64,000 nt of DNA from Meiothermus rufus DSM 22234 (GCF_000423425.1 NZ_AUHY01000008.1:1-64000); one strand, 5' to 3'. Counted from the first letter of the stretch, positions 8,754 through 32,105 are shown. Program-made: numbers and translations. Notes: a model not told the origin generated them from the letters alone.

Positions 8754-11700
8754 CTACTCCTCCCGGTCGGCGCCTGAGGGATAGTATACAGCCTCGAGGG
8801 GCTTCCTTAGCAACACGGCCCCTTCCATCTTTTGCAGCACCTGCTGGGCCAGCTTTTCCAACGGAACCCGGCTGGGCAGCAGCGGCTCACCACTTCGCCG
8901 GCGCAGCTCCTCGCGCACCCAGGCATCGGCGCTAGGGTGGTGCGCGGCCAGCCGCCAGACCTGGGAGGCCAGGGCAGCCGGCAGGTGGGGCGTGAGACCG
9001 ATTAGGGCCCGCAGCGCAAGCGGTATGGCCCCCAGCCGCAGGGCTTGCTCTAAGGCCAGACGGTAACAGGCTTTGCTCTGGGCGATCTCCTCCAGGGCAA
9101 AGTAGGTGCGGCCTAGGTGGTTGTAGGCCAAGGCCTCACCCCAGGGGTAATGACTTTGAACAAAACGCTCCAAGGCCTGGCGTTGCAGTTTGAGGGCCCG
9201 TTCGTAGGCCCCGTCGCGCATGGCCAGGCGGCCCAGCCCTACCAAGGCCCGGCCAATGGTGATCTGGTCACCCGTCTGATAAGCCGCTTCCAGGCTACCT
9301 TGCAAGCGCTCGTTGCACTCCTCGTTTTGGTACTCGATGCCCGCCACAGTGCCCAGGCCCAGCAGGGCAGCAGACTGGGTAAAGGGGTCACCGAGTTGGT
9401 TAGCAAAGGATAGGCTTTGTCGGTACATTTCCCGAGCCACGGCGTACTCGCCCAGCGAGGTGTAAAGCTGCCCCAGTCCAGCGAGCACCAGCCCCAGCCC
9501 CCTGGCATCCGATAAGGCCCGGTAGACCTCGAGGGCTTCCTGCAAGTAGCGCTGGGCTTGGGTGAAGTCGCCTTGCAGAAGGGCCAGAGAGCCCAGGTTG
9601 TATAGCGCGCTGCCCAGGCCCCAGGGCCATTTTTGTTGCCGGCGCATCTCCAGGCTTTGTACAAACAGTCCCCGGGCCTCTTGGGCCAGACCTAGCCCCA
9701 TGGCCGCCATCCCCAGGTTGTTGAGGGCGTAGGCGGTTTCGGAAGGGTCTATATGCCCCTGCCCTAGCGCCAGGCTCTGCTGGAGTACCCGGTAGGCTGC
9801 CGCGTTCTGTCCCTGGAGATACAGAAAGCGGCCCCAGCGGCCCAGGGCTAGGCTTCGTAGCAAGGGGTGGCTGCTTTGGGCTGCCCTGGACATCAAGGCT
9901 TCGCCTTCCCTAAACCAGCCCCGCAGTTCGAGCAACAAACACAACCCCTCTATCATCTGTAAGGCTAGCCGGTGATCTTCCCGTTGGAGGGTAAACTGCC
10001 AGGCCGCCCGCAGGTCGGCGTACTGCCGTGAGAGCAAAGGCAAAGCCCCCACCTGGTTGCCCCCGCGCAACTCCTGCTCGTGGTTGTGTAGCAGCAGAGC
10101 GTAGTAGGCTGCATGGGCTTGGCGTGTCGCCAGGGGGATTCCAGGCGCGAGGTGCTGGCGGATAACCGTTAGCATGCGGTATCCTTCGGGCTGCTTTTGC
10201 AAAAGAGCCCGGTCGAGCAGGGCGGACAAAAGCCCAGGAGAGCTGGCAGCAATGGTTTGGGCGGCGATGAGGTCAAAGGTTTCCTCAAAAACGGCTAGCT
10301 TTTGCAGGGTTTCCCGCTCTGCCGGGCTGAGCTGGGCCAGGCTGCTTTCCAGGACTTTCTGCAGGCTGCTGTGACGATCCGGCAGGTTGCTCAGACCACC
10401 CTCCAGCAGCTCCAGGCCTTGCTGCAGATTTTGCGCAATTTCCTGGCAAGACATCACCCGTAGGAGGGCTGCAGCCAGCTCGAGGCCCAGGGGGAGCCCT
10501 GAGAGTAGGCGGCATATCTGGCCGATGGCGCTCCAGTCCTCGGCGCTGGGGATAAAGTGGGGCTGCACCCGTTGGGCCAGCAGGCAGAACAGCTCCGCGG
10601 CGGGGCTGCGCTGTGGGGGCTGATCCGGGGGAGGGTAGCGCAGGCCGCGAACCTCGTAAACCCATTCGCTGCGCAGGCGAAAGCGTACCCTCGAGGTCAA
10701 AACCAGCTTGACCTGGGGGCTATGGCGCAGTAGGTCTTCTAGGGCCTTAGGGTCGGAAAGTTCCTCAGCCTCGTCCAGAAAAAGATAGGCCGGTCGGTGG
10801 CTGAGATGGTGCCGGAGGGCCTCCTGTAGGTCGCCCTTTCCCGAAACAGCTAATCCCAGGGCCTCGGCTAGGCTTTCGTAGAGTGGACGGCCCTGCACCG
10901 GTACCCAGTAAACCGTGGCCTTCTGGGTAGCTAGCCTTTCCGCCAGAGCCAGGGCCAGCCGGGTCTTACCCACCCCTCCAGGTCCTATCAGGTTGAGCAA
11001 GCGACAGTCGGGCCGCTGTAAAAGGGTCCACACCTCGGCCTGTTCGGCCTCCCGTCCCACCAGCGGAGTGGGAGGGCTGGGCAGGCTGGGAATGGCCGGG
11101 TCTGGGTTGAGGCGGGCTGCCCGGGCCTGCGCTTCCGGGCTGGGTTGAAGGCCCAGCTCATCCCAGAGGCTCTGCTCCAAGCCGCGGTAGATGCGCAGGG
11201 CAGCAGCCCGGTCGCCCTGGGCTTCACATAGCCGCATGGCCTCGAGGTAAGGCCGTTCGCTCAGGGGATCGGCAGCGATGGCCAGCCGCCATAAGGCTAG
11301 GGCCTCAGCAGGGCGGCCTTGCGCTTCTTCCTGCCGGGCCAGCGTGTGCAACCCTTCCAGGTAGCTTTGTTGCAGACTCGAGCGAACCTGTTCCAACCAG
11401 TGTTCAAAGCTGGCGGTCTCGCGGGGTTGTAGGCCTTGCAAAAATGGACCTCGGTATAGCTGCAAAGCCGTGCGGTACCGACCGGTAGCCAAGGCCTCCT
11501 GGAAGGCCCACAGGTCTACCTCTATCCAGCAGGGGTCGAGCCGCAGAAGTTGCTGGCCCTCTTTGCGTAGGGCAGGCCCCAGCAGCTTGCTCAGGCGCGA
11601 GACCTCCTGCCGCAAACTAGCCCGGGCCAGCGCTTCCGGGTTTTCCGGCCAGAGCAGCGCCACCACCTGGCTACGCGTGGCCCCGGCCCGCTCGACCGCC

Positions 11701-11822
11701 AAAAAGGCCAGCAGGGCCAGGGCCTTACGGGTGGCCAGGCGCTGAGGCTGGCCATTCTTTTCTAGCCCCGGCGGCCCCAGGAGCCGGAGTTTGAGGGACG
11801 GGCCGGGTACGGCAGGCATCAT
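8754..11822 (-). CDS. SARP/BTAD-family regulator with NB-ARC-like ATPase and TPR domains
   Basis: A 1022-residue signalling regulator. Order of parts: OmpR-type winged helix (about 8-95), BTAD helical domain (about 100-240), a P-loop ATPase with Walker A GPGGVGKT near 277 and Walker B AYLFLDEAEEL near 345, a helical linker, then a long C-terminal array of TPR repeats (about 600-960) rich in alternating Leu/Ala/Tyr. The layout matches AfsR/MalT-like activators, in which the TPR part senses a ligand or partner. Two adjacent ATGs (11822 and 11819) follow the -10-like box TAGCAT at 11833-11828, consistent with a leaderless transcript. The target is unknown. It lies downstream of the GGDEF gene and the small membrane gene. 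Confidence 0.85.
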   Translation of the reverse strand: MMPAVPGPSLKLRLLGPPGLEKNGQPQRLATRKALALLAFLAVERAGATRSQVVALLWPENPEALARASLRQEVSRLSKLLGPALRKEGQQLLRLDPCWIEVDLWAFQEALATGRYRTALQLYRGPFLQGLQPRETASFEHWLEQVRSSLQQSYLEGLHTLARQEEAQGRPAEALALWRLAIAADPLSERPYLEAMRLCEAQGDRAAALRIYRGLEQSLWDELGLQPSPEAQARAARLNPDPAIPSLPSPPTPLVGREAEQAEVWTLLQRPDCRLLNLIGPGGVGKTRLALALAERLATQKATVYWVPVQGRPLYESLAEALGLAVSGKGDLQEALRHHLSHRPAYLFLDEAEELSDPKALEDLLRHSPQVKLVLTSRVRFRLRSEWVYEVRGLRYPPPDQPPQRSPAAELFCLLAQRVQPHFIPSAEDWSAIGQICRLLSGLPLGLELAAALLRVMSCQEIAQNLQQGLELLEGGLSNLPDRHSSLQKVLESSLAQLSPAERETLQKLAVFEETFDLIAAQTIAASSPGLLSALLDRALLQKQPEGYRMLTVIRQHLAPGIPLATRQAHAAYYALLLHNHEQELRGGNQVGALPLLSRQYADLRAAWQFTLQREDHRLALQMIEGLCLLLELRGWFREGEALMSRAAQSSHPLLRSLALGRWGRFLYLQGQNAAAYRVLQQSLALGQGHIDPSETAYALNNLGMAAMGLGLAQEARGLFVQSLEMRRQQKWPWGLGSALYNLGSLALLQGDFTQAQRYLQEALEVYRALSDARGLGLVLAGLGQLYTSLGEYAVAREMYRQSLSFANQLGDPFTQSAALLGLGTVAGIEYQNEECNERLQGSLEAAYQTGDQITIGRALVGLGRLAMRDGAYERALKLQRQALERFVQSHYPWGEALAYNHLGRTYFALEEIAQSKACYRLALEQALRLGAIPLALRALIGLTPHLPAALASQVWRLAAHHPSADAWVREELRRRSGEPLLPSRVPLEKLAQQVLQKMEGAVLLRKPLEAVYYPSGADREE
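8783..8813 (-). promoter_or_regulatory. Probable valS promoter inside the end of the SARP gene
   Basis: On the minus strand, TATACT (8788-8783) lies 19 nt after TTGCTA (8813-8808). Transcription would start near 8776, giving a leader of about 320 nt with the T-box. The boxes overlap the last codons of the upstream SARP/BTAD gene. The spacing is longer than ideal. Confidence 0.4.
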
Positions 11823-12757: not shown

Positions 12758-13651
12758 TCAGGTGCGCTTGATGTTGCCGTTGAGGCCATTGGGGAAGAAG
12801 CCCCCCATCGTTTTGTTTGCATCACCGGTCAGGTAGACGATTTTCAAGACCTCGCTGGTGTCGCGACCAAAGGCGATGCCATCATTGTCGGCTAGCACCA
12901 GGTTGGCCCGGTTATCTTTGACGATACCCTCATCCTTGCCGCCCCCCACGCTGCCGCGCAGGTTGCTGATGGCCTGAACCACGTCCTTGACCGTGAGGCT
13001 AGAGGTCACCATCACGTCCTTGCGCTCGTGCAGCAGCAGCCGGATAACCCCGGCGTGGTAGGCCTCTACGGCCAGGATACCGGCGGCGGAGTCGAGCACG
13101 GTGTTTTTGTCGGTGATCAGCTTGGCTGCGCCTTTGTAGGCGCTGACCCCTACATCCTCGAAGATAAAGGCCCCGTGGATGAAGAAAAGCTCGTTGGCGA
13201 AGGGGTTGAAGTTGGTGATGGCCCCATTGCTGGCGGCGTTGCCAGCATCCCGGAAGGCCTGGTCGAGGTCGATGACCGGGCGATCTACGGCAGCGTTGCC
13301 CAGGGCCAGGCGGATGAACTTGACGTGGGCCAGCTCGTCCTCAGCGATCTCCTGGGCATACTCCAGCACATCTGGGCTCAGACCGGGGATAGGGCTGGTG
13401 CCGGTAAAGCCGCTGGGCAGGCGAATCTCGGCGTTGCCCCCCAGGGTGGCGATCTCGTTGATGCGCCCCACTGCGGCCAGGTAGAAAGCCGCCTCGAGGT
13501 ACTCCAGGTTGAGGGCAAAGTTCAGCACGTCCACGTCGATGTTGGGGCTTTGGCTCATGCCGGGGGTAGTGGCGCAGGCCCCCACCACCCCGCCCAACAC
13601 CAACCCGGTGCCAATCAGACCAGCCTGCCTAAGCATTTCCCTGCGGTTCAT
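12758..13651 (-). CDS. Exported ferritin-like diiron-domain protein (Ferritin_2 / desiccation-related family)
   Basis: A 297-residue protein with an N-terminal export signal: NRREML suggests the Tat route, and the VGAC end of the hydrophobic stretch looks like a lipobox, so it may be a surface lipoprotein. The mature part is a four-helix ferritin-like bundle that keeps likely metal ligands in each helix: EYLEAAFY, EDELAHVKF, FEDVGVSAY and VEAYHAGVIR. The family includes plant desiccation-related proteins; substrate and partner are unknown. The ATG has a good AGGAGG site and lies 12 nt after the CHRD gene, so the two are co-transcribed. Confidence 0.82.
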   Translation of the reverse strand: MNRREMLRQAGLIGTGLVLGGVVGACATTPGMSQSPNIDVDVLNFALNLEYLEAAFYLAAVGRINEIATLGGNAEIRLPSGFTGTSPIPGLSPDVLEYAQEIAEDELAHVKFIRLALGNAAVDRPVIDLDQAFRDAGNAASNGAITNFNPFANELFFIHGAFIFEDVGVSAYKGAAKLITDKNTVLDSAAGILAVEAYHAGVIRLLLHERKDVMVTSSLTVKDVVQAISNLRGSVGGGKDEGIVKDNRANLVLADNDGIAFGRDTSEVLKIVYLTGDANKTMGGFFPNGLNGNIKRT

Positions 13652-13663
13652 AGCTTTCCTCCT

Positions 13664-14164
13664 CTAGAACACGATTTGTCCCCGAATCTCGCCAGCCCGG
13701 AAGGCGGTGGTGTGGATGTCGAAGTACAGCTCGCCTTGGCGCAGCCGGGTGAGGTCTTCCACGCTGAGCTCGAGGCGATCCACAAAGGTAGCGCTCCTGC
13801 CATCGGGAGCAGCCATCACCTTGAGGGCTTGCAATAAGGGGCCGTTCTGTCCTTTGGCGCCACGGTGAATGTGCACCGCGCTGGTCAGGCGGGCGTTGAG
13901 GGCGGGGTCGTCCACCGGGTCACGGGTGTAGTCGCGGAAGGCCCCGGCCAGGTTGGCCACGACCCCTTGCAGGCTCAGCACGTTGCCCATCAGCTCCAGG
14001 CGCACCACCGCCAAAGCCGGGGTGTTGACCGGGTTGGGCACGATCTCCGCTCCGCTCAGCACCACCGCCCGCACCTGGCCCATGCCCTGCCCCAGGGCTA
14101 CCGAACCCAGGCCCAGGGCAGCCAGGCTGCTGCCTAGACCTTTAAGAAAGAACCGGCGTTGCAT
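13664..14164 (-). CDS. Exported CHRD-domain protein
   Basis: 166 residues with a Tat-like signal (MQRRFFLKGL followed by a hydrophobic stretch ending LGSVALG). The rest is one CHRD domain, the beta-rich domain first named in chordin: it contains HIHRGAKGQNGP in the middle and ends with the conserved FDIHTTAFRAGEIRGQIVF pattern. The start at 14164 was chosen over upstream in-frame codons because GGAGG lies just before it and the signal peptide then begins correctly. Bacterial CHRD proteins have no settled function. It sits between two ferritin-like genes, suggesting one extracytoplasmic system. Confidence 0.82.
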   Translation of the reverse strand: MQRRFFLKGLGSSLAALGLGSVALGQGMGQVRAVVLSGAEIVPNPVNTPALAVVRLELMGNVLSLQGVVANLAGAFRDYTRDPVDDPALNARLTSAVHIHRGAKGQNGPLLQALKVMAAPDGRSATFVDRLELSVEDLTRLRQGELYFDIHTTAFRAGEIRGQIVF

Positions 14165-14239
14165 ACAAACCTCCTTTCCTAGCTCCCGCGGGAAGCCGCT
14201 GGGGTTTCCCGCGGGGAAGATGCGCAATCCTTCCAGCGC

Positions 14240-14881
14240 CTAACGACGGATAAAGCCCTGCACCGCCCGGGTGGCCTGTTCGGGGGTGATGGCCGCAGCG
14301 AAGGCCCGGCCTACTGGGGTCTGAGGCCCCTCTACCCGCCCGCCCAGGCTGATCACTGCGTCGCGCAGGATGGCCAGGTGGGCTTCCTCGTTCATACCGA
14401 TACTGGCTGCAGCGGAGAGCACGGCCTTGTTCTGGATCAGGGGGATGGCCCCCAGGTAGGCCCCGGTGAAGGCGGTCTCCAGGGCCACCAGGGTCTCCAG
14501 CACCTTGAGGCGGTTGGCGGCGTTGAACTGCAGGTCGCCGTAGGTGAACTGGGGCCGGGCTACCGGGGTGGCCCGGAAGGGGCCGCTGATGGTGTCCTGT
14601 AGGGCCTTGACGTGAGCCTCCTCGTGCTTGAGAGCCTCGGCCAGGTAGTCGCGGATGTTGCTGGGGAAGGCCACGGTCAGGGCCCGGGTGTAGGCGTCGG
14701 TGGCCAGGTATTCCGCGGTGAGGGCCAGGTTGAGCACATCCAGATCGCTCACCCCCTGGGACTGGGCCAGGGCCAGGTGGCCGAGCTGGGTGGCCAGGGC
14801 CGCGCTCAGGCCCCCGGCGGTCAGCACCTTAACAAACTGACGGCGGTTGGCTTTTTTCTGGCTTTCCAAGATTTCTAGCAT
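14240..14881 (-). CDS. Exported ferritin-like diiron-domain protein
   Basis: 213 residues from ATG 14881, which has AAGGAG seven nt upstream; an upstream in-frame start lacks such a site. The N-terminus (ANRRQFVKVLTAGG, then a hydrophobic stretch to LALAQ) is a Tat signal with a probable signal peptidase site. The mature part is a ferritin-like bundle with EYLATDAY, KHEEAHVKAL, ALETAFTGAY and MNEEAHLAIL, so the carboxylate/histidine set for two metals is present. It is a distant paralogue of the product of 12758-13651. It starts 27 nt after the SnoaL-like gene. Confidence 0.82.
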   Translation of the reverse strand: MLEILESQKKANRRQFVKVLTAGGLSAALATQLGHLALAQSQGVSDLDVLNLALTAEYLATDAYTRALTVAFPSNIRDYLAEALKHEEAHVKALQDTISGPFRATPVARPQFTYGDLQFNAANRLKVLETLVALETAFTGAYLGAIPLIQNKAVLSAAASIGMNEEAHLAILRDAVISLGGRVEGPQTPVGRAFAAAITPEQATRAVQGFIRR

Positions 14882-14908
14882 GGTCTTCTCCTTTTGCAAC
14901 AAGAGGGC

Positions 14909-23602: not shown

Positions 23603-24337
23603 ATGCGAATCCTGGTCACCAACGACGACGGTATCTATAGCCCCGGTCTTTTGGCCCAGGCCCAGGTGGCCACCGCCTTTGGCCAGGTGCGGGTGGTGGC
23701 CTCCGATGTGGAGCAGTCGGCTATGGGGCATGCCATCACCATCCTGCGCCCCCTGCACTACCGCGCCACCCCGCTGGGGGGCCTCGAGGCCTACCGGGTC
23801 AACGGCACCCCTGCCGACTGCGTGGCCCTGGGCACCCACCACTGGGAGCAGGTCGACCTGGTGCTTTCAGGTATCAACCTGGGAGCCAACCTGGGCCACG
23901 AAATCTGGCACTCCGGCACCGTAGCCGCGGCCAAACAGGCCGCCCTTCTGGGCATTCCGGCCATCGCCTTCAGCACCCCCGTCAATGGCCGCGAGCCCGA
24001 CTTTGAAGGCCTCAAGCCCTGGGTGGGAAAGGTGCTGGAAGCCCTCCTGCGCGAGCCCAAGCCCTTTTTGATCAACGTCAACCTGCCGCCCAAACCCAAG
24101 GGGCTGCTGTGGGCCCGCCAGTCGGTGCGGCGCTACCTGGGCCGGGTGGTGCCCGGCACCGACCCCATGGGCCGGGAGCACTTCTGGTTTGCCCCCCACC
24201 CCGATCACGAGCCGGAGGAGGGCACCGACCGCTGGGCGCTGGAGCACAACTTTATCGCCCTCACCCCCCTGCGCCTCGACCTGACCGACGAGGCCCGCCT
24301 GGGCCAGGCCTTTCAGCGGGCGACCCTGGCCGACTGA
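23603..24337 (+). CDS. surE: 5'/3'-nucleotidase SurE
   Basis: A survival protein that dephosphorylates nucleoside 5'- and 3'-monophosphates. The metal-binding motif NDDGIYSPG is right at the N-terminus, followed by [23 protein letters not shown] and [22 protein letters not shown], so the active site is complete. The start was set to the ATG that gives [10 protein letters not shown], the standard SurE start; an in-frame ATG at 23588 is also possible. The 3' end overlaps the convergent hydrogenase-like small-subunit gene by 25 bp. Confidence 0.94.
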
Positions 24338-25137
24338 GGCCCGGCTTCCTGCAACCGCCCGCCCACCAGGCGCTGCCGTACCCGCCCGCTGAGGAGCAAA
24401 AGGCCATGCAGAATGGCGGGGGGGCGGGCCGGGCTGCCCGGCACGTACACGTCGACCGGCAAAAGCCGGTCAACCCCGCCGACCACCTGGGGGCTGCCCT
24501 TGAACACCTCACCATCGATGGCCTCGTTGCCCACGGCCACCACGCCCTTGGGCTCAGGGGTGGCCTGGTAGGTGCGCAGCAGGGCCTCGCGCATGTTCTG
24601 GCTCACCGGGCCGGTGACCAGCAAAGCGTCGGCATGGCGGGGCGAGGCCACCACGCTGAAGCCAAAGCGGGCCATGTCGTGGAAGGGGTTGCCCGCCAGA
24701 GCGATCTCGCTGTCGTCCTGGCCGGTGTTGCCTGCGGAGACCTCGCGGAAGGCCAGGGTGGGCAGGTGCAGCTCGCTGCGGGTGGGCAGCGGGGGGGTGG
24801 CCTCCACAAAGGCCCCCTTTTCCAGGTCGACCCGCTGGATCAGGTCGCTGCGCCGGGTGACCGCAACCTCGAGGCTGCGCATCTCCTCGATGGCCTGGGG
24901 AAAGGCCCTGCGGCAGCGGCCACAGAGCACGCAGTGGGCCAGATCCAGCCGGAACTCCCCCGGCTCCTCCTGGAAGGCTCCGCTGGGGCAGAGGGCCTGT
25001 AGGGCCTGCCGCACCTGAGGGGATAGCCCCTGGGGTTGCAACAGTGGCCAGCCGGGGGCCCAGGCCGGAAGGCGGAAGAGCTTGTCCAGGCTTCGGGTCA
25101 GAAGACCGGTGCGTAGGGTTTGCCAGAGGGCATTCAT
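24313..25137 (-). CDS. Hydrogenase-4/complex I-like small subunit (EhrS/HyfI-like) with ferredoxin domain and no N2-cluster cysteines
   Basis: 274 residues. Residues 45-85 form a ferredoxin-type module with one complete [4Fe-4S] set: C50 (CPSGAF) plus C69, C72 and C75 (CVLCGRC). These are the only cysteines in the protein. Residues 125-247 match HycG/HyfI/NuoB, including [13 protein letters not shown] and VDVYVPG, but the four N2 ligands are replaced: CNGC became TGQD (138-141), VGSC became VGNE (E205) and PGCPPRP became PGSPARP (S235). The start is ATG 25137, overlapping the preceding stop (ATGA); GTG 25146 is possible. It is the last gene of the operon and presumably the peripheral electron-entry subunit, but the chain beyond its single cluster is unclear. 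Confidence 0.85.
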
Positions 25138-26471
25138 AGGTCGCACCCCGCGTAGGAAAGGTCGAAGGACTTATTTATGAGAGGGAAATCGGGCAGGCCC
25201 ATGCCCCGCACCGCGATTTCCAAAGCCCGCCAGTTCTTAAAGCTGGGGTCTACCAGCCGCGCCCGGGCCACCCGGGCCCCTTCCAGCCGCACCCAGTAGA
25301 ACACCTCGCCCCGCCCGGCCTCCACCCGGCTGTACCCCTCGGCGGCGGGCGGGGGAGCGGCTTCTTTGGCCCAGACCGGCCCGGAGGGCAGCTCGGCCAG
25401 GAAGCGCTCGAGGTAGGCGAAGCTTTGCCGTACCTCCTCGCTGTAGACCTGGGCGCGGGCCAACACGTCGCCCCCAGAGCGCACCACCGGGCTGAAGGGT
25501 TGGTAGAGGGGGTCTTCCTGGCGCAGGTCGCGGGCGATACCGCTGGCGCGGGCTGCCGGCCCCACCAGACCCAGCAGGCGGGCCTGGGCCTCGCTTACAG
25601 GCCCCACATAGCGCATGCGGTCCAGCACCATGGGGTGCTTCAGGGCGGCTTGCAGATGGGCGCCGACCTCGCGCCCTAGGTCGTGCAGGGCGTCCTGGAG
25701 CTCGTCCTGGGTGCCCCGGTCGGGGTCGAAGTAGACCCCGCCTGGGCCGATGGCATTGCGGCCATAGCGGTGGCCAGTCAGGCGCTCGAGCTGCCCCTGG
25801 AGCAAGGCCCGCACCTTGCCTACCTGGGTTGCGGCATAGGCGTAGCCGATGTCGGTAAAGAGGCCAGCCAGGTGGCCCAGGTGGCCGAAGATGCGCTCGA
25901 GCTCCAGAACCACCCGGCGCAAGACCTGGGCCCTGGGGGGCACCGCCACCCCCCAGGCGGCCTCCACCGCCTGGGCCAGGGCCAGGGCATGGGCCACGCT
26001 CTCTCCCCCGGCCCGCTCGGCCAGCAGGAGGGCTTGGGCCAGCCCCTGCCCCTGCATCTGGGCCTCGAGGCCACGGTGTTGGTACCCCAGGCGTACCTCC
26101 ATGTGCAGAATCTGCTCACCCAGCACGCTAAAGCGAAAATGCCCGGGCTCGATGATGCCGGCGTGCACCGGGCCTACCGGCACCTCGTGCAGGCCTTCGA
26201 TCGGGTCGAAGGGGTAAGGTTTTTGGTGGTCGCGCAAGGGTTTGAGGGCGGGGTGGCCCTCGGGGTGGAGGCCGTGGGCCTCCCACAGGGCCCGCTCGAA
26301 CCAGTCCAGGGCGGGGAAGTCGCGGGCCAGGCTGGGGAAGGTGGTGGTGGCCTCTAGCTCCAGCACCTCGAGGCCTTTTTCCGCTCTTTCCACAAAGTAG
26401 CGAAGCGTTGGGGCCTGGTAGTCCAGGGCTACTAGCCGGCCTTGGCTCAGGGCTTCGATCAGCGCGTCCAT
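25134..26471 (-). CDS. Hydrogenase-4-like large subunit (EhrL/HyfG/NuoCD-like) lacking NiFe cysteines
   Basis: 445 residues: an N-terminal NuoC-like 30-kDa domain (about 1-85, with LDWFERALWEAHGLHPEGHP) fused to a NuoD/hydrogenase large-subunit domain. Conserved stretches include EPGHFRFSVLGEQILHMEVRLGYQHRGLE. Where NiFe hydrogenases have ERxCGxCxxxH, this protein reads ERAGGESVAH (152-161), and the C-terminus reads LSYAGCDL instead of DPCxxC; the only cysteine is in that last motif. A NiFe site therefore cannot be built. The start overlaps the HyfF-like gene by 13 nt, and the stop overlaps the small-subunit start. Confidence 0.87.
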   Translation of the reverse strand: MDALIEALSQGRLVALDYQAPTLRYFVERAEKGLEVLELEATTTFPSLARDFPALDWFERALWEAHGLHPEGHPALKPLRDHQKPYPFDPIEGLHEVPVGPVHAGIIEPGHFRFSVLGEQILHMEVRLGYQHRGLEAQMQGQGLAQALLLAERAGGESVAHALALAQAVEAAWGVAVPPRAQVLRRVVLELERIFGHLGHLAGLFTDIGYAYAATQVGKVRALLQGQLERLTGHRYGRNAIGPGGVYFDPDRGTQDELQDALHDLGREVGAHLQAALKHPMVLDRMRYVGPVSEAQARLLGLVGPAARASGIARDLRQEDPLYQPFSPVVRSGGDVLARAQVYSEEVRQSFAYLERFLAELPSGPVWAKEAAPPPAAEGYSRVEAGRGEVFYWVRLEGARVARARLVDPSFKNWRALEIAVRGMGLPDFPLINKSFDLSYAGCDL

Positions 26472-27826
26472 GCCAGTACCTCCGCCCAGGTCTTAACCAG
26501 CTCCACCGGGGGCAACAGCCCCAGGAAGAGGCCCACAGCCAGCAGAACCCCCGGCACCAGCACCAGGCTTTGGCCCTGGGGCCGGTGGGGCAGGGTCCCC
26601 GGGCCATAGATCATCTGGGAAAGGGGCCAGAGTAGCCCGGCAAAGGCACTCACCAGCCCCAGCAGGTAAAGTCCCATGGCCCAGGGCGCAGAGGCGAGCA
26701 AAGCCTGGAACTCGGCGAAGAACAGCCCGAAAGGGGGCAGCCCGGCCAGGCCCAGAAGGGCCAGCAGGAAGACCCAGGCCCCAGCGGGCCAGGCCTGGTA
26801 GACCCCCCCTACCCGGGCGATGAGCTTGCTGCGGTAGGCCAGCAACAGGTTTCCGGCCCCCAGGAAGGCCGCGGTTTTGAGCAGGGAGTGGAACAGGGTG
26901 TGCAACATAGCCAGCCAGGGCAGGCCCAGGCCCAAGGCATAGACCGCCAGCCCCATGTGCTCCATGCTGGAATAGGCCAGCAGCCGCTTAAAGTCCTTTT
27001 GTGCAAAAAGGAAAAGCCCTGCCGCCAGAAGCGAGATAAGGCCGAAGCTCTGTAGCAAAAGCGCAGCTTTCTCGAAAAGCCCCGCGCTGCCCAGCAGGGC
27101 GGTATAGCGCAGAAGGGCGTAGAAGGCGACGTTGAGTAGGGTGCCCGAGAGCAGGGCCGAGGCCGGGCTGGGGGCCTCGGAGTGGGCGTCGGGCAGCCAG
27201 GCGTGCAGGGGGAAGAGCCCTACCTTGGTGCCAAACCCCACCAGCAAAAAGGCGAAAGCCAGGCCTAGCTGGGCCGCGCTGGCCGTGCGGGCCCATTCGC
27301 GGGCCTCCTGCCAGTCCAGGGTGGTCCCGCCCAGCAGGGCGTAGACCAGAATCACCCCGATAAGCCCCAGGGCGATCCCCACGCTGCCCAGCATGAGGTA
27401 CTTCCAGGTGGCCTCGAGGGCCCGCGCCCCGCCCTTGTGGTAGACCAGCAGGGCTGAGGCCAGGGTGCTCCCCTCCACAAAAATCCATAAAAGACCCAGG
27501 TTGTGGGCCAGGAAGGCCCCGTGCATGGCAAAGAGGAAGAGGTTGCCCGCGGCGAAAAAGCGCCAGGCTTCCTGGTCCTGGCTCTCCTGGAAATAGGCCC
27601 GGGCATACAGGGCCACCAGGCCGAAGATGAAATCGGTAAGCAGCAGGTAGAAAAGCCCCACCCCGTCCAGCCGCAAGGGGCCACTGGCCTGGTTCTGGGC
27701 CAAAAGCCCCAGTGCCAGCGAAAACCAGGCTGCCCCCAGGCTGAGGCTGGCCAACCGCGCAGGCGTCCGCTCGCGCAGGGCATAGAGGGCGGGGAGCAAG
27801 GGGAGTAGCAGCAGCAGGTACAGCAT
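26459..27826 (-). CDS. HyfF/NuoN-like proton-translocating membrane subunit
   Basis: 455 residues and about fourteen membrane helices of the Mrp-antiporter/complex I family. The residues used for ion pumping are present: glutamate E118 in the fifth-helix motif (WIFVEGSTL), lysine K201 in GFGTKVGLFPLHAWLPDAH, and a later KTAAFLGAGNLLLAY lysine. This argues that the complex still moves protons or sodium although its redox subunits are altered. It starts 2 nt after the HyfE-like gene and overlaps the large-subunit gene, so translation is coupled. Confidence 0.88.
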   Translation of the reverse strand: MLYLLLLLPLLPALYALRERTPARLASLSLGAAWFSLALGLLAQNQASGPLRLDGVGLFYLLLTDFIFGLVALYARAYFQESQDQEAWRFFAAGNLFLFAMHGAFLAHNLGLLWIFVEGSTLASALLVYHKGGARALEATWKYLMLGSVGIALGLIGVILVYALLGGTTLDWQEAREWARTASAAQLGLAFAFLLVGFGTKVGLFPLHAWLPDAHSEAPSPASALLSGTLLNVAFYALLRYTALLGSAGLFEKAALLLQSFGLISLLAAGLFLFAQKDFKRLLAYSSMEHMGLAVYALGLGLPWLAMLHTLFHSLLKTAAFLGAGNLLLAYRSKLIARVGGVYQAWPAGAWVFLLALLGLAGLPPFGLFFAEFQALLASAPWAMGLYLLGLVSAFAGLLWPLSQMIYGPGTLPHRPQGQSLVLVPGVLLAVGLFLGLLPPVELVKTWAEVLAWTR

Positions 27827-27828
27827 AG

Positions 27829-28410
27829 TTATCCCTTCAGTTCGCGCATACGGGCGGTGTCGATGTGTTGGAAGGTTTCCTTAATCCGAAAAATCAGCAC
27901 CCCGGCCAGCACCACCGCGGCGAAGGCGTCCAGCGCCACCCCGATCTCGATAAAGAGGGGCAGGCCGTGGGTTTCGGCCAGGGCCAGCAGAAAGACCCCG
28001 TTTTCCAGGGCTAAAAAGCCCAATACCTGGGTTACGGCCTTTTTGCGGCTGACCATAAAGAGCATGCCTAGCAGAATCAGGCCGATGGCCACCGGCACCG
28101 CCTCGGGCAGCCGGGCCCCCTCCAGCACGAAGCTGCGGCCCACCCAGAAGCCCACCCCGGCCAGCAGGCCGCCTAAAAGCAGCGAGAGCGGGATGGAAAG
28201 GTACGACTCCACCTCGTGGCTGATGCCCAGGCGTTCCAGAAGCCGGAAGAGGTACAGCGGAATCAGCACCCCTTTGATGAGCAGCAGGCCCAGCCCGGCC
28301 AGGATGAAGTGCAGCTCACCCTCGGCCAGCACAAAGGCTAAGAGCCCCAGTAAAACGTTTTGTAAGGCATATAGCCGGATCAGGGCATCCAGGCTCTTGC
28401 GCCCTACCAT
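27829..28410 (-). CDS. HyfE-like membrane subunit (NuoK-like), start codon uncertain
   Basis: About 193 residues with six or more membrane helices; the C-terminal part resembles NuoK (ENGVFLLALAETHGLP, then LDAFAAVVLAGVLIFRI). ATG 28410 (or TTG 28413) would start inside the expected first helix: the frame upstream still reads a hydrophobic run (LASSLALAILATGFL) that fits HyfE's first membrane helix. No ATG, GTG or TTG exists in that upstream stretch, which runs back into the HyfC-like gene, so a CTG or other unusual start is possible. The helper role is to join the antiporter-like subunits to the membrane arm. Confidence 0.8.
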   Translation of the reverse strand: MVGRKSLDALIRLYALQNVLLGLLAFVLAEGELHFILAGLGLLLIKGVLIPLYLFRLLERLGISHEVESYLSIPLSLLLGGLLAGVGFWVGRSFVLEGARLPEAVPVAIGLILLGMLFMVSRKKAVTQVLGFLALENGVFLLALAETHGLPLFIEIGVALDAFAAVVLAGVLIFRIKETFQHIDTARMRELKG

Positions 28411-28451
28411 CAAAAATCCCGTGGCCAGGATGGCCAGGGCCAGGCTAGAGG

Positions 28452-29309
28452 CTAAATCCGAAAACGTAACACCACCCCCAGTACGGCCAGCACGCCGCTC
28501 AGCGTGCTGTAGCTCATCAGGTCGGGAAGCCTGAGGTAGCGAAGCTTAACCCCGTAGGTCTCCAGGTAGCCCAAAGCCAGCCAGCCCAAGAGCAGCACCA
28601 GAGGGAAAGACCAGGCGCCCAGGGGCATGAGCAGGGCGATGAGGCCCAGGTAGACCAGCATCTTTAGCCCGGCGGCCAGCTCGTACAGGGCCAGCAAGGG
28701 GCCGCTGTGATCCAGGAGCTGGGCCTCGTGGATCATGGTGAGCTCGAGGTGGGTGGTAGGGTCGTCGACGGGCATGCGGGCCCCCTCGGCCACCAGGGCC
28801 AGGGCCAGGGCCACCAGGGCCAGAGTATAGACCAGCAGGTTTTCCGCCGAGAGGGGGGCCAGGCCCGCCAGGGAGAGCTGGCTCGAGGCCAGCGCCGCTG
28901 CCCCCAGCGCCAGCAGGGTGCCGGGCTCGGCCAGCACCGCCACCAGGCTTTCCCGGTAGCTGCCCTGGCCGCCAAAGGCGCTGCCGGTGTCCAAAGCGGC
29001 TAGCACCTGGAAGAAACGCCCCAGGTTGAGTAGGTAGGCCAGCACCAGGAAGTCTCCCGCAAACGAAAACCCAGGCAGCAACGGCAGAAAGAGGGCGGCT
29101 AGAAAGGCCCCCAGCAGGGCCATCACCGGGGCCCACACGAAGATGGGGCTGCTGGGACTGGGGCGAATCCAGGCCTTGTGCCAGAGCTTGTACAGGTTGC
29201 GGTAGTCGTAGAGTGGGTCGGGGCCCAGGCGGTTTTGCAGGCGGGCCTTGAGCCACTTCAGGCTGCCGGTGAAAAGCGGAGCGATAAGCAAGAACAGCAA
29301 AGCGGTCAT
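28452..29309 (-). CDS. HyfC/NuoH-like membrane subunit
   Basis: 285 residues and about eight membrane helices. Motifs shared with HyfC/HycD/NuoH: NRLGPDPLYDYRNLYKLWHK after the first helix, FALDTGSAFGGQGSYRE-like quinone-chamber region (ALDTGSAFGGQGS), and the acidic loop EGARMPVDDPTTHLELTMIHE, which in complex I lies at the junction of the redox and pumping arms. The start is ATG 29309 overlapping the HyfB-like stop codon (ATGA); an upstream extension in this frame has no hydrophobic or conserved features. Confidence 0.88.
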   Translation of the reverse strand: MTALLFLLIAPLFTGSLKWLKARLQNRLGPDPLYDYRNLYKLWHKAWIRPSPSSPIFVWAPVMALLGAFLAALFLPLLPGFSFAGDFLVLAYLLNLGRFFQVLAALDTGSAFGGQGSYRESLVAVLAEPGTLLALGAAALASSQLSLAGLAPLSAENLLVYTLALVALALALVAEGARMPVDDPTTHLELTMIHEAQLLDHSGPLLALYELAAGLKMLVYLGLIALLMPLGAWSFPLVLLLGWLALGYLETYGVKLRYLRLPDLMSYSTLSGVLAVLGVVLRFRI

Positions 29310-31081
29310 TGCCAGCTCACCCCCAGTACGAAAAGCAGGGCTAGAAACTGCAACAGCAGGTAAAGGTGCAGGCTCCCCGACTGGAGCCTTTGGGCCTGGC
29401 GGGCCAGGAAAAGATAGCCCCGCGCAAAGAGGGCCTCGAGGGTGCCCCACCAGTCCCCTCCCTGCCAGCGCAGCGTGGGCGGGTGCAATAGCCCCTCCCT
29501 CGAGGCTTCGATTTTTACTTCCACAAAGGGAAAGAGCCGCAGGAGCTGTTCACTATACCCCAGGGCGTTGGGTTGCATGCGGGGGCTAAGGGCCGATCCG
29601 GGCTGACCCGGCTGGTTGTAGCCGCAATCCCAGGGGGTGTAGCTGCGCCAGGGTTTGCGCTGCAACAGGTAGACCAGCCCACCCCCCAGGCCCAGCAGCC
29701 CCAGGGCAAGCAGGGCCACCGGGTACAGCGGCGGGTTCAAGGGGGCCAAAAGCGCCCCAGGGAAGAGGGAAAGCCCCACCAGCCCCAGGGCTAAAAGCCC
29801 CAGGCCCACCTGGCCGTATAGCCCCACCTCGTGCACCTCCAGGGCCTGGGAGCTGCGGGGTAGGCCCAGGAAGGCCAGGCCCAGCAGGCGCACGTACAGC
29901 GCCGCGGCCAGGGCCCCTACCAGGGCCAGCACCCCCACCCCCAGGGCTAAAAGCGAGACCACGCCCCCCTTGGGTACCGAGAGGAAGCCCTGGTAGAGGT
30001 ACCACTCACCCAAAAAGCCCGCCAGAGGGGGCAGGCCGGCCCCCACAGCGGCTGCCAGCAGGCTGTAGGCGGCGGTTTGGGGTAGCTTTGGGAAAAGCCC
30101 CCCCAAGGCCGAAAGCCCCCGCTCCTTTAGCGCCCCCGACCCCAGGAAGAGGAGGCCCTTAAAGAGGGCGTGGGCCGCCTGGTGGAAGAAGAAGGCCAGC
30201 AGGAAAAAGGGGTGTTGCAGCAGGAAATACCCTCCCAGAGCGGCCAGCAGCAGGTTGAGGTTTTCCACGCTGGAGTAGGCCAGCACCCCTTTGTAGTCGT
30301 TTTCGGCCAGGCCCAGCACCAGGGCATACACCGCTCCGGCCAGCCCCAGGCCCAGCAAAAGCCAGCCCACCCAGGCCGGAGCTGGCCCGGCCCAGTCCAA
30401 AGCCCGGTACAGGCCGTAGAGCCCTAGCTTGACCATCCCTCCAGAAAGCAGGGCCGAAAGCGGGCTCATGGCGACCGGGTGGGCTTTGGGCAGCCAGGCA
30501 TGCAGGGGGAAGAGGGCTGCCTTGGTGCCGAAGCCCAGCACCAGCCCGGCCCAGACCAGGTGAACCAACCCCTCCCGCGGCCCGCCCTGGATGAGCAGCA
30601 AAAGGGCCAGGAAGAGCCCGGCCCCCGAGACCCGGCTGGCCAGGAAGAAGGCCCGGCTGCCGGCCAGGGCCGCGGGCCCCTCGAGGGCGATCAGCAGATA
30701 GCCCAGTAGGGCCATTCCCTCCCACAGGAAAAGGAAGCTGTAGCCCAAAGGGGCCAGTACCACCCCGGCCATGCTGCCGGCAAAAAGGGGCAGCAGGAGG
30801 GTTTCCAGGCGGGCTCGAGGCCCCGGATGGTGGGCCAGGTAGTCGCGCAGGTAAAAGCCCACCCCCAGGTACAAGGCACCCAAAAGGGCCAGGTAAAACC
30901 CAGCGGTGGCGTCCAGCGGTAGGGCAGAAGACTGGCCCAGCCAGGCGGGTAGGCCTGCCAGCGCCAGCAACAGGCCGCTGCCCCCTAAGCCCAGGGGCAG
31001 GTAGCGGTAGGCGGCGGGTGCCAACAGGGCCAACAGGCTTTGCCCACCCAGCAAGCCGAAAGCGATGTAGATTAGCGTCAT
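29306..31081 (-). CDS. HyfB/NuoL-like proton-translocating membrane subunit
   Basis: 591 residues, with about fourteen core helices and a C-terminal extension that ends in a last membrane helix after a soluble stretch (WDCGYNQPGQPGS, usual in HyfB). Pumping residues are kept: E121 (LFLWEGMALLGYLL), K187 in GFGTKAALFPLHAWLPKAHP, and later lysines such as GMVKLGLYGL. First structural gene of the operon; its ATG overlaps the stop codon of the ArsR regulator gene (ATGA), so regulator and complex share one message. Confidence 0.88.
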   Translation of the reverse strand: MTLIYIAFGLLGGQSLLALLAPAAYRYLPLGLGGSGLLLALAGLPAWLGQSSALPLDATAGFYLALLGALYLGVGFYLRDYLAHHPGPRARLETLLLPLFAGSMAGVVLAPLGYSFLFLWEGMALLGYLLIALEGPAALAGSRAFFLASRVSGAGLFLALLLLIQGGPREGLVHLVWAGLVLGFGTKAALFPLHAWLPKAHPVAMSPLSALLSGGMVKLGLYGLYRALDWAGPAPAWVGWLLLGLGLAGAVYALVLGLAENDYKGVLAYSSVENLNLLLAALGGYFLLQHPFFLLAFFFHQAAHALFKGLLFLGSGALKERGLSALGGLFPKLPQTAAYSLLAAAVGAGLPPLAGFLGEWYLYQGFLSVPKGGVVSLLALGVGVLALVGALAAALYVRLLGLAFLGLPRSSQALEVHEVGLYGQVGLGLLALGLVGLSLFPGALLAPLNPPLYPVALLALGLLGLGGGLVYLLQRKPWRSYTPWDCGYNQPGQPGSALSPRMQPNALGYSEQLLRLFPFVEVKIEASREGLLHPPTLRWQGGDWWGTLEALFARGYLFLARQAQRLQSGSLHLYLLLQFLALLFVLGVSWQ

Positions 31082-31416
31082 GACCGGGATAGCCCCTCCT
31101 GCAAGGCGGAAAGCTGGTTGCTCTGGCTTTTGAGGTGCCGTTCGAAGATGGCCCGCCCCAGGTCGAGGAAAACATAGACCTGAGGATCGGCGATGCGGTA
31201 GTGCACGGTGGTTCCCTCCTTGCGTGCGATGACCAGGCCCCGCTGGCGCAGCACCGCGAGCTGCTGGGAGACGCTGGGCTGCTCGAGGCCCAGCTCCTCG
31301 GCCAGCCGGCTCACGCTCTGCTCGCCCTGCCGCAGCGCATCCAGAATGGCCAGACGCACCGGGTGGCCCAGGGCTTTGAAGAACTCGGCTTTAAACTGAT
31401 GTAGGGCAGAGATCAC
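31078..31416 (-). CDS. ArsR-family transcriptional regulator of the hydrogenase-like operon
   Basis: 112 residues with a winged HTH: FFKALGHPVRLAILDALRQGEQSVSRLAEELGLEQPS (split here by the usual turn) and recognition helix SVSQQLAVLRQRGLV. It has no cysteine, so it is unlike thiol-based metal sensors, and I see no obvious metal-binding set; the signal is unknown. GTG 31416 was chosen because TATAAT lies 6 nt upstream, so the transcript is leaderless; a longer version from 31458 would start inside the promoter. The stop overlaps the HyfB-like start. Two palindromes cover the promoter, implying autoregulation. Confidence 0.85.
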   Translation of the reverse strand: MISALHQFKAEFFKALGHPVRLAILDALRQGEQSVSRLAEELGLEQPSVSQQLAVLRQRGLVIARKEGTTVHYRIADPQVYVFLDLGRAIFERHLKSQSNQLSALQEGLSRS

Positions 31417-31422
31417 TAGATG

Positions 31423-31453
31423 ATTATATTCAGAATATCTTATATTGCAATAT
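31423..31453 (-). promoter_or_regulatory. Promoter and double-palindrome operator of the ArsR/hydrogenase-like operon
   Basis: On the minus strand, TTGCAA (31450-31445) and TATAAT (31428-31423) are 16 nt apart. Two palindromes cover them: ATATTGCAATAT (31442-31453, perfect) over the -35 and ATATTC-N-GAATAT (31426-31438, perfect arms) overlapping the -10, separated by 3 nt. This is a textbook layout for ArsR repression. Confidence 0.8.
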
Positions 31454-31513: not shown

Positions 31514-31975
31514 TTAGGGTTGTGGGCCGCGTAGGGTCTGCAAGGAGTTCCAGAGGTTCTCTTCCATAGCCTCGAGGCCCTTTTGGCTACCCACCACCGC
31601 GAGAGGGCTGGCGCTGCCGTCGTAGAGGTAGAGCACCCGGATGGGGAAGAACAGGTAGACCGCCAGGGCCACCAGGGCTAGGGCCAAGGCCCCATACTCC
31701 AGAGCTGCCGGGCTCAGCCGCAGCAGCTGGGGGAGGTTTAGCCAGCCCAGCGAACGCAGCAGCAGGCTAACCAGGCCCACAAAGAAGCCCACAAAGGCTA
31801 CGGCCAGCAACCCGTCGCGCATCTGGTAGGTGCGCTCGAGGCGCGCCAGCTTTAGCAGATGGAGGCGTACCGAGACCGTGCCACTGCGAAAGCAAAGCCA
31901 GCCCGCTTCGATAAAAGCTTCCCGAAATCGCTTGCCGAGGACGGTGTACCGGTGAGGCAGGGTGATCTTTCCCAT
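31514..31975 (-). CDS. Membrane protein of unknown function
   Basis: 153 residues from ATG 31975, which follows AGGAG by 5 nt. The N-terminal 55 residues are basic and soluble (HRYTVLGKRFREAFIEAGW, ending RLERTYQMRDG), followed by two membrane helices at about 55-75 and 90-115, then a short acidic C-terminal part (GSQKGLEAMEENLWNSLQTL). I do not recognise a family. It faces away from the two-component system and follows the ArsR promoter in the same direction as the hydrogenase-like operon only by orientation, not by spacing. Confidence 0.65.
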   Translation of the reverse strand: MGKITLPHRYTVLGKRFREAFIEAGWLCFRSGTVSVRLHLLKLARLERTYQMRDGLLAVAFVGFFVGLVSLLLRSLGWLNLPQLLRLSPAALEYGALALALVALAVYLFFPIRVLYLYDGSASPLAVVGSQKGLEAMEENLWNSLQTLRGPQP

Positions 31976-32105
31976 TTTGACTCCTGGGGGCATTGCGCCC
32001 ACTGGCTGTCCCCCACTTTAATCCAGAGAATCATGGCTCGCGCGAGAGGGCCGATTGAATTAGCCTTCGCAAACCACTTTTTGCCTTTGAGCTACAATTT
32101 GCACG

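Follow-up and report, generated by a model that had tools for sequence, protein, structure and literature searches.

The Ehr (Ech-hydrogenase-related) complex, encoded by ehrABCDLS, was first named in Geobacter (PMC7894505, PMC3569383, PMC6688271), and recent papers call its function unknown (PMC12342949, PMC10432482, PMC10284858). A complex I-like proton-conducting subunit also occurs in the DAB / MpsAB systems, which are non-redox CO2-supply machines; DAB2 contains the NuoL-like DabB2, and its CO2 hydration is coupled to membrane potential (PMC13144422). Ehr complexes and their absent Ni-Fe ligands are already known. Here, we analyze an Ehr operon of the hot-spring bacterium Meiothermus rufus DSM 22234, located in a window (the whole stretch of DNA analyzed) of 64,000 nucleotides (GCF_000423425.1 NZ_AUHY01000008.1:1-64000). 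On the basis of sequence comparisons, we show the loss of eight cofactor cysteines, selection on the remaining protein, retention of pump residues and folds, a regulator shared with SulP anion transporters, and mutual replacement of Ehr and SulP. The explanation we favor, which is quite possible though short of probable, is an ion-gradient-coupled, electron-free Ehr complex that replaces SulP, most likely in CO2/HCO3- acquisition or interconversion.

The operon lies on the minus strand (31416 to 24313) and begins with an ArsR-family gene, which is followed, with overlaps or short gaps, by genes of the HyfB, C, E, F, G, and I types, so that all six Ehr subunit types are present in one operon (Table 1). 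Pfam and NCBIfam assign Proton_antipo_M (twice), NADHdh, Oxidored_q2/HyfE, Complex1_49kDa, and Oxidored_q6 to the six genes. The HyfC start, at 29309, differs from the mechanical open reading frame (ORF) start. The original prediction, made from the window alone, placed the complex at 24313-31081; its six coupled genes stand, and its upstream end is moved because the ArsR gene (31416-31078) had been overlooked. This regulatory gene, just outside the predicted interval, is the best functional clue, as it is shared with SulP.

In EhrL, residues 152-161 read ERAGGESVAH where NiFe enzymes have their CxxC region, and alignment with HycE of formate hydrogenlyase (FHL), MbhL, and Nqo4 places no Cys at either position of this L1 loop. 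At the C-terminus, the group 4 hydrogenase motif KSFELCYACLD is replaced; the sole Cys in this region, C443, is off by one residue and is Ser or Asn in Thermus. In EhrS, the GxCNGCE, GxC, and PGCPP motifs of N2 proteins are all altered (PGCPP becoming PGSPA), and all four N2 cysteines are gone. Ehr orthologues are present in 14 of 37 Thermaceae genomes, making 15 loci, because Allomeiothermus silvanus has two copies. The remaining 14 loci, which come from 13 other genomes (62-77% identity), have none of these eight cysteines, which rules out a sequencing error or simply shifted cysteines. The predictions that the complex has neither NiFe ligands nor N2 cysteines, and that the first CxxC and the C-terminal motif of the large subunit are changed, are therefore borne out by the alignments, in the window and in the other Thermaceae loci.

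The HypD maturation gene is absent from the six Ehr-positive genomes checked (G000, G001, G018, G020, G023, G024). The quinone ligands His38 and Tyr87 of Thermus Nqo4 are unmatched in EhrL, where the aligned places are Ile107 and a Gly. Subunit types are shared with formate hydrogenlyase and hydrogenase-4 (Hyc, Hyf), but the complex has no Ni-Fe site, N2, genomic hypD, separate HyfA/HyfH, or HyfD. Similarly, it shares NuoB, NuoD, NuoH, and NuoL/M/N homologues with respiratory complex I, from which it differs in having no NADH module or N2 and in its unmatched quinone ligands; the genome has a separate Nqo4 homologue.

The first 110 residues of EhrS form a ferredoxin-like stretch with four cysteines (ALCPSG...AHCVLCGRC), which every Thermaceae copy and a distant homologue, L046, retain and which may hold one [4Fe-4S] cluster. 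The idea of a complex free of redox sites is thus correct for NiFe and N2, but one [4Fe-4S]-type motif survives. A separate Cys-rich ORF (EPCCPICxLxR...CSRHW...CxxC...CLxHL) follows EhrS in two Thermaceae genera (L034:6104-6706, L045:11452-12180, L032:11940-12500); it is possibly metal-binding, has no Pfam match, and has no copy in the window.

A profile scan of species genomes with Thermaceae EhrL yielded 80 loci spread over many phyla, almost all of which show the B-C-E-F-G-I order; Geobacter relatives are among them. Four of these loci (L063, L083, L090, L129) encode genuine hydrogenases with CxxC; the rest carry an L1 loop of GD(T/S) type and an L2 motif of NKSFxLSYxGxDL. Across phyla, 47 EhrL residues are fully invariant, and the former Ni-Fe pocket is refixed on new invariant residues, including S439 and G442, with no drift. 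Thermaceae EhrL nests among the Ehr rows, apart from NiFe group 4 (SH-aLRT 86-99, in a quick tree with weak deep branches). The M. rufus operon shares with Ehr the six subunit types and their order, the missing Ni-Fe ligands, and the NKSFxLSYxGxDL end, and Geobacter homologues are in the same tree; subunits, lost ligands, and phylogeny confirm the predicted Ehr-type identity, neither hydrogenase nor complex I. Compared with typical Ehr, the Thermaceae copies have no N2 cysteines, an L1 loop one residue shorter (GxE, not GD), and changes of EhrL D200 and R343, which are near-invariant elsewhere.

Absence of the Ni-Fe ligands is the norm among Ehr complexes, whereas absence of N2 departs from it. 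Some 62 Ehr homologues retain all four N2 cysteines (98-100% conserved), so that the 80-locus survey rules out N2 loss as a general trait, contrary to the prediction that it is a hallmark of Ehr. All four cysteines are absent in Thermaceae, a methanogen clade, and a verrucomicrobium (L117), and each loss removed the four together. The best EhrL tree needs three such changes, one for each of these groups. The approximately unbiased (AU) test does not reject a single clade uniting Thermaceae with methanogens (p = 0.284), and L117 is clearly separate; N2 was therefore lost at least twice, and probably three times, the third loss not being proven. In every N2-less lineage, C208 has become an acidic residue. 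EhrL R343 does not vary among N2-bearing Ehr complexes and the NiFe enzymes compared, but it is replaced by Tyr in the Thermaceae copies and by Lys in those of methanogens. These substitutions appear to be partly convergent. L046:6266-13279, from a genome of the same taxonomic order (G037), is a much diverged Ehr-like operon with an extra NuoL-like gene and loss of the EhrL L2 motif as well, and L103 is a tandem pair of Ehr operons in a verrucomicrobial genome.

The N2-less methanogen set comprises L061, L093, L114, and L121 and nine further Methanomicrobiales genomes; 10 of 80 Methanomicrobiales genomes carry such an Ehr, one of them shared with the four scan loci. Their EhrS has neither N2 nor the ferredoxin stretch, and there is no other Fe-S gene among the six genes. 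These operons provide the clearest indication that redox cofactors can be dispensable for Ehr function, with a separately encoded partner being possible, and they strengthen the suggestion of no redox chemistry at all, which for Thermaceae is tempered by the one motif kept there. A beta-carbonic anhydrase gene adjoins the N2-less Ehr in L093, L239, and L240. Formate dehydrogenase (FDH) and/or formate transporter (FNT) genes flank it in the Methanomicrobiales loci L239, L240, and L234.

These observations bear on a distinctly unlikely alternative, a redox pump in which the EhrS N-terminal [4Fe-4S] cluster would take electrons from a soluble donor (ferredoxin or formate dehydrogenase) and pass them to an acceptor in the EhrL cavity. 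Conservation of the four-cysteine motif, the fdhA-like and FNT genes near L239/L240, and published proposals linking FDH with Ehr, together with an abundance of Ehr in Geobacter that is tied to formate (PMC6349859, PMC7894505), are consistent with such a pump. However, N2, which would link the ferredoxin site to the membrane junction, is gone, the Nqo4 quinone ligands are unmatched, and the methanogen complexes lacking N2 also lack the ferredoxin motif.

EhrL and EhrS are under purifying selection, as their pairwise dN/dS values of 0.10-0.25 within Thermaceae show. The AlphaFold2 model of EhrL (pLDDT 91.9) has FHL HycE as its best match in the Protein Data Bank (PDB; 7z0s_E, TM 0.91), and that of EhrS (pLDDT 88.7) best matches 7z0s_G of the same enzyme; the NuoB-like part of the latter superposes at 1.0-1.4 Å root-mean-square deviation although its cluster ligands are gone. 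As predicted, the pumping subunits retain key Glu and Lys residues: equivalents of NuoM E144, K234, and E407 are kept in both HyfB and HyfF, and at the position of K265, HyfB has K while HyfF has N, like E. coli HyfF. Conservation of the HyfC junction loop, PVDDPTTHLELTMIHE, is likewise confirmed by alignment. It is thus extremely unlikely that the operon is a functionless, decaying remnant. Such decay could explain the loss of all catalytic and N2 ligands, the patchy distribution (14 of 37 Thermaceae), and the HyfB of one genome (G027, L040), which appears as two reading frames with one stop between them, but the other copies are open-framed with low dN/dS and conserved pump residues, coordinated N2 loss recurs in separate lineages, and two copies are carried on an A. 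silvanus plasmid.

The same Cys-free ArsR precedes every Thermaceae Ehr operon. Its orthologue occurs in 21 of 37 Thermaceae genomes, where it is adjacent to Ehr in 14, abuts or overlaps a SulP gene in 7, and is linked to both in none (hypergeometric P = 0.024, with no correction for kinship). A tree of the ArsR genes places those linked to SulP in a single clade (100/99) inside the Ehr-linked ones, and the exchange within Thermaceae was therefore probably one swap. A palindrome, ATATTGCAATAT, lies before the start codon and is exact in the Ehr-linked L032, L034, and L045 and the SulP-linked L178, and the operon is presumably under ArsR control. Ehr (in G018/G020) and SulP (in Meiothermus-like genomes) occupy one neighborhood, marked by hisS, aspS, SMC, and a recombinase-like gene; replacement at exactly the same junction was sought and the junctions differ, so replacement is claimed at the level of the neighborhood only. 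SulP proteins include bicarbonate transporters. SulP of Thermaceae (SLC26/BicA-like) is an anion transporter, probably with bicarbonate as a substrate; it shares the ArsR and promoter motif with Ehr and is exclusive with it in this family, although the proteins are of unrelated families. Another candidate operator, ATTC-N8-GAAT, which is that of SqrR, was found in L091 and L096 only and is absent from Thermaceae, and was dropped. The A. silvanus plasmid pMESIL01 (L034, L035, L137) carries two near-identical ArsR-Ehr operons, with about 1.1 kb without a Pfam match between ArsR and HyfB.

The regulator also raises the alternative of a sulfur or sulfate role, in which a sulfide-responsive, BigR-like ArsR would control the movement of sulfate or sulfite, SulP would transport sulfate, and Ehr would be a complex linked to sulfur. 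The ArsR has a sub-threshold match to BigR, its distant relatives occur in sulfur-oxidation clusters, and one of the A. silvanus copies has sox-type genes at a distance of about 9 kb. This role is very unlikely, however: BigR senses via cysteines, which the Thermaceae orthologues do not have; the match misses the curated BigR cut-off widely (63.8 versus 155 bits); and closer relatives of the ArsR adjoin SulP and carbonic anhydrase.

Similar links are found beyond Thermaceae. In Methylomirabilota, the ArsR subfamily adjoins Ehr in 30 of 30 loci examined, many of which are close kin. Among 18 ArsR loci of an Acidobacteriota class, 12 have Ehr alone, 2 have Ehr with SulP, 1 has SulP alone, and 3 have neither. 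Plasmid loci of related ArsR genes (n = 14) have SulP in 8 cases and carbonic anhydrase in 3 (two together) within about 5 kb. SulP adjoins Ehr in Omnitrophota L060 and in L068 and L124; in L060 (1599-13498), SulP, PTS EIIA, the Ehr operon, and an H+-pyrophosphatase (H+-PPase) gene succeed one another on one strand. A beta-carbonic anhydrase is present in 7 of 37 Thermaceae, and all seven are ArsR-positive (P = 0.011, uncorrected). A pairing of SulP and carbonic anhydrase in Acidithiobacillus has been read as bicarbonate transport (PMC6458275).

A regulator common to SulP and Ehr might instead be explained if both answer pH or anion stress. In this alternative, which we regard as unlikely, Ehr would be an antiporter of cations and protons, like Mrp, that serves pH or salt homeostasis and in which a degenerate EhrL/EhrS scaffold gates Na+/H+ or K+/H+ exchange via HyfB/HyfF. 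The kept pump residues would suit an antiporter, models of Mrp subunits give good scores with HyfB and HyfF, an H+-PPase adjoins the SulP-EIIA-Ehr series of L060, and the Ehr of Methylacidiphilum has been listed with pH-homeostasis genes (PMC6688271). Yet the 47 invariant EhrL residues, which include the refixed pocket NKSFxLSYxG, exceed the needs of a passive scaffold, and the carbonic anhydrase neighbors are left unexplained.

Because the electron route to the membrane junction is lost, the pump residues and the fold are preserved, and Ehr can apparently be swapped for an anion transporter, we favor an electron-free inorganic-carbon machine, by analogy with DAB2. Electrons would no longer reach the membrane arm by way of N2 or a Ni-Fe site; the machine would instead be driven conformationally and coupled to the ion gradient, in a direction that is presumed. 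The cytoplasmic EhrL/EhrS module would use the cavity that once held Ni-Fe, now refitted, to bind a small substrate, and CO2/HCO3-, the presumed substrate, would be handled in place of the SulP anion transporter. Because the methanogen homologues do without the [4Fe-4S]-type site of Thermaceae, we read its role as structural or regulatory. Several observations weigh against this explanation. The conserved four-cysteine site of Thermaceae EhrS is odd if the redox role is gone, and no carbonic-anhydrase-like zinc site was identified in EhrL. About 70 of the 80 scan loci have no SulP, carbonic anhydrase, or such ArsR in the flanks examined. The Thermaceae swap was probably one event, and the P values overstate independence. 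Although Thermaceae SulP finds its best PDB match in BicA (6ki1), scores extend over the whole SulP family, and one more distant ArsR with SulP sits in a sulfur-oxidation cluster (L200). In addition, the FDH and FNT genes that flank two methanogen loci fit a formate link too.

A broader generalization, to which we give still less credence and which is on balance doubtful, is that Ehr complexes are non-redox, ion-gradient-driven inorganic-carbon machines that arose from hydrogenase/complex I, as a further solution of complex I type next to DAB and the NDH-1 forms by which cyanobacteria take up CO2, and that N2 was discarded as unneeded in Thermaceae and methanogens. In contrast to DAB / MpsAB, Ehr is built of six subunits and includes a hydrogenase-like module, and its link to CO2 supply consists of the regulator and neighbors only; there is no Pfam match to DabA (DUF2309) among the operon genes. 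No earlier report of an N2-less Ehr or of the ArsR/SulP link was found in the accessible literature, mostly without subscription journals, and prior mention is possible.

Table 1. Coordinates of the ArsR-Ehr operon features in the M. rufus window.
Feature	Position	Strand	Remarks
Promoter/operator-like palindrome ATATTGCAATAT (candidate)	31442..31453	.	Common to ArsR-Ehr and ArsR-SulP promoters of relatives
ArsR-family regulator without Cys	31078..31416	-	First gene of the operon; overlaps next gene; GTG start inferred via orthologues
EhrA / HyfB-type antiporter-like subunit	29306..31081	-	Equivalents of NuoM E144, K234, K265, E407 kept
EhrB / HyfC (NuoH-like) subunit	28452..29309	-	Junction loop PVDDPTTHLELTMIHE
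EhrC / HyfE-type membrane subunit	27829..28413	-	Pfam/NCBIfam
EhrD / HyfF-type antiporter-like subunit	26459..27826	-	E144, K234, E407 kept; 265 is N
EhrL / HyfG-type large subunit (NuoC+D-like)	25134..26471	-	Ni-Fe cysteines absent; L1 is ERAGGESVAH
EhrS / HyfI-type small subunit	24313..25146	-	Without the four N2 cysteines; N-terminal ferredoxin-like stretch

Directly upstream of ArsR, on the same strand, the window contains an ORF of 162 amino acids (31514-32002) with hydrophobic stretches and no Pfam match. Elsewhere in the window are two neighboring ferritin-like (PF13668) proteins with Tat-like leaders (12758-14902) and a BTAD/AAA/TPR regulator of 1022 amino acids, which is STAND-like (8754-11822).

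Ehr is present in many phyla. A complex I-like machine that has no redox cofactor motif, as in methanogens, or has a single isolated site, as in Thermaceae, is a natural experiment that parts ion transport from electron transfer. Even without a role in inorganic carbon, it would be a natural model of a membrane arm uncoupled from redox chemistry.

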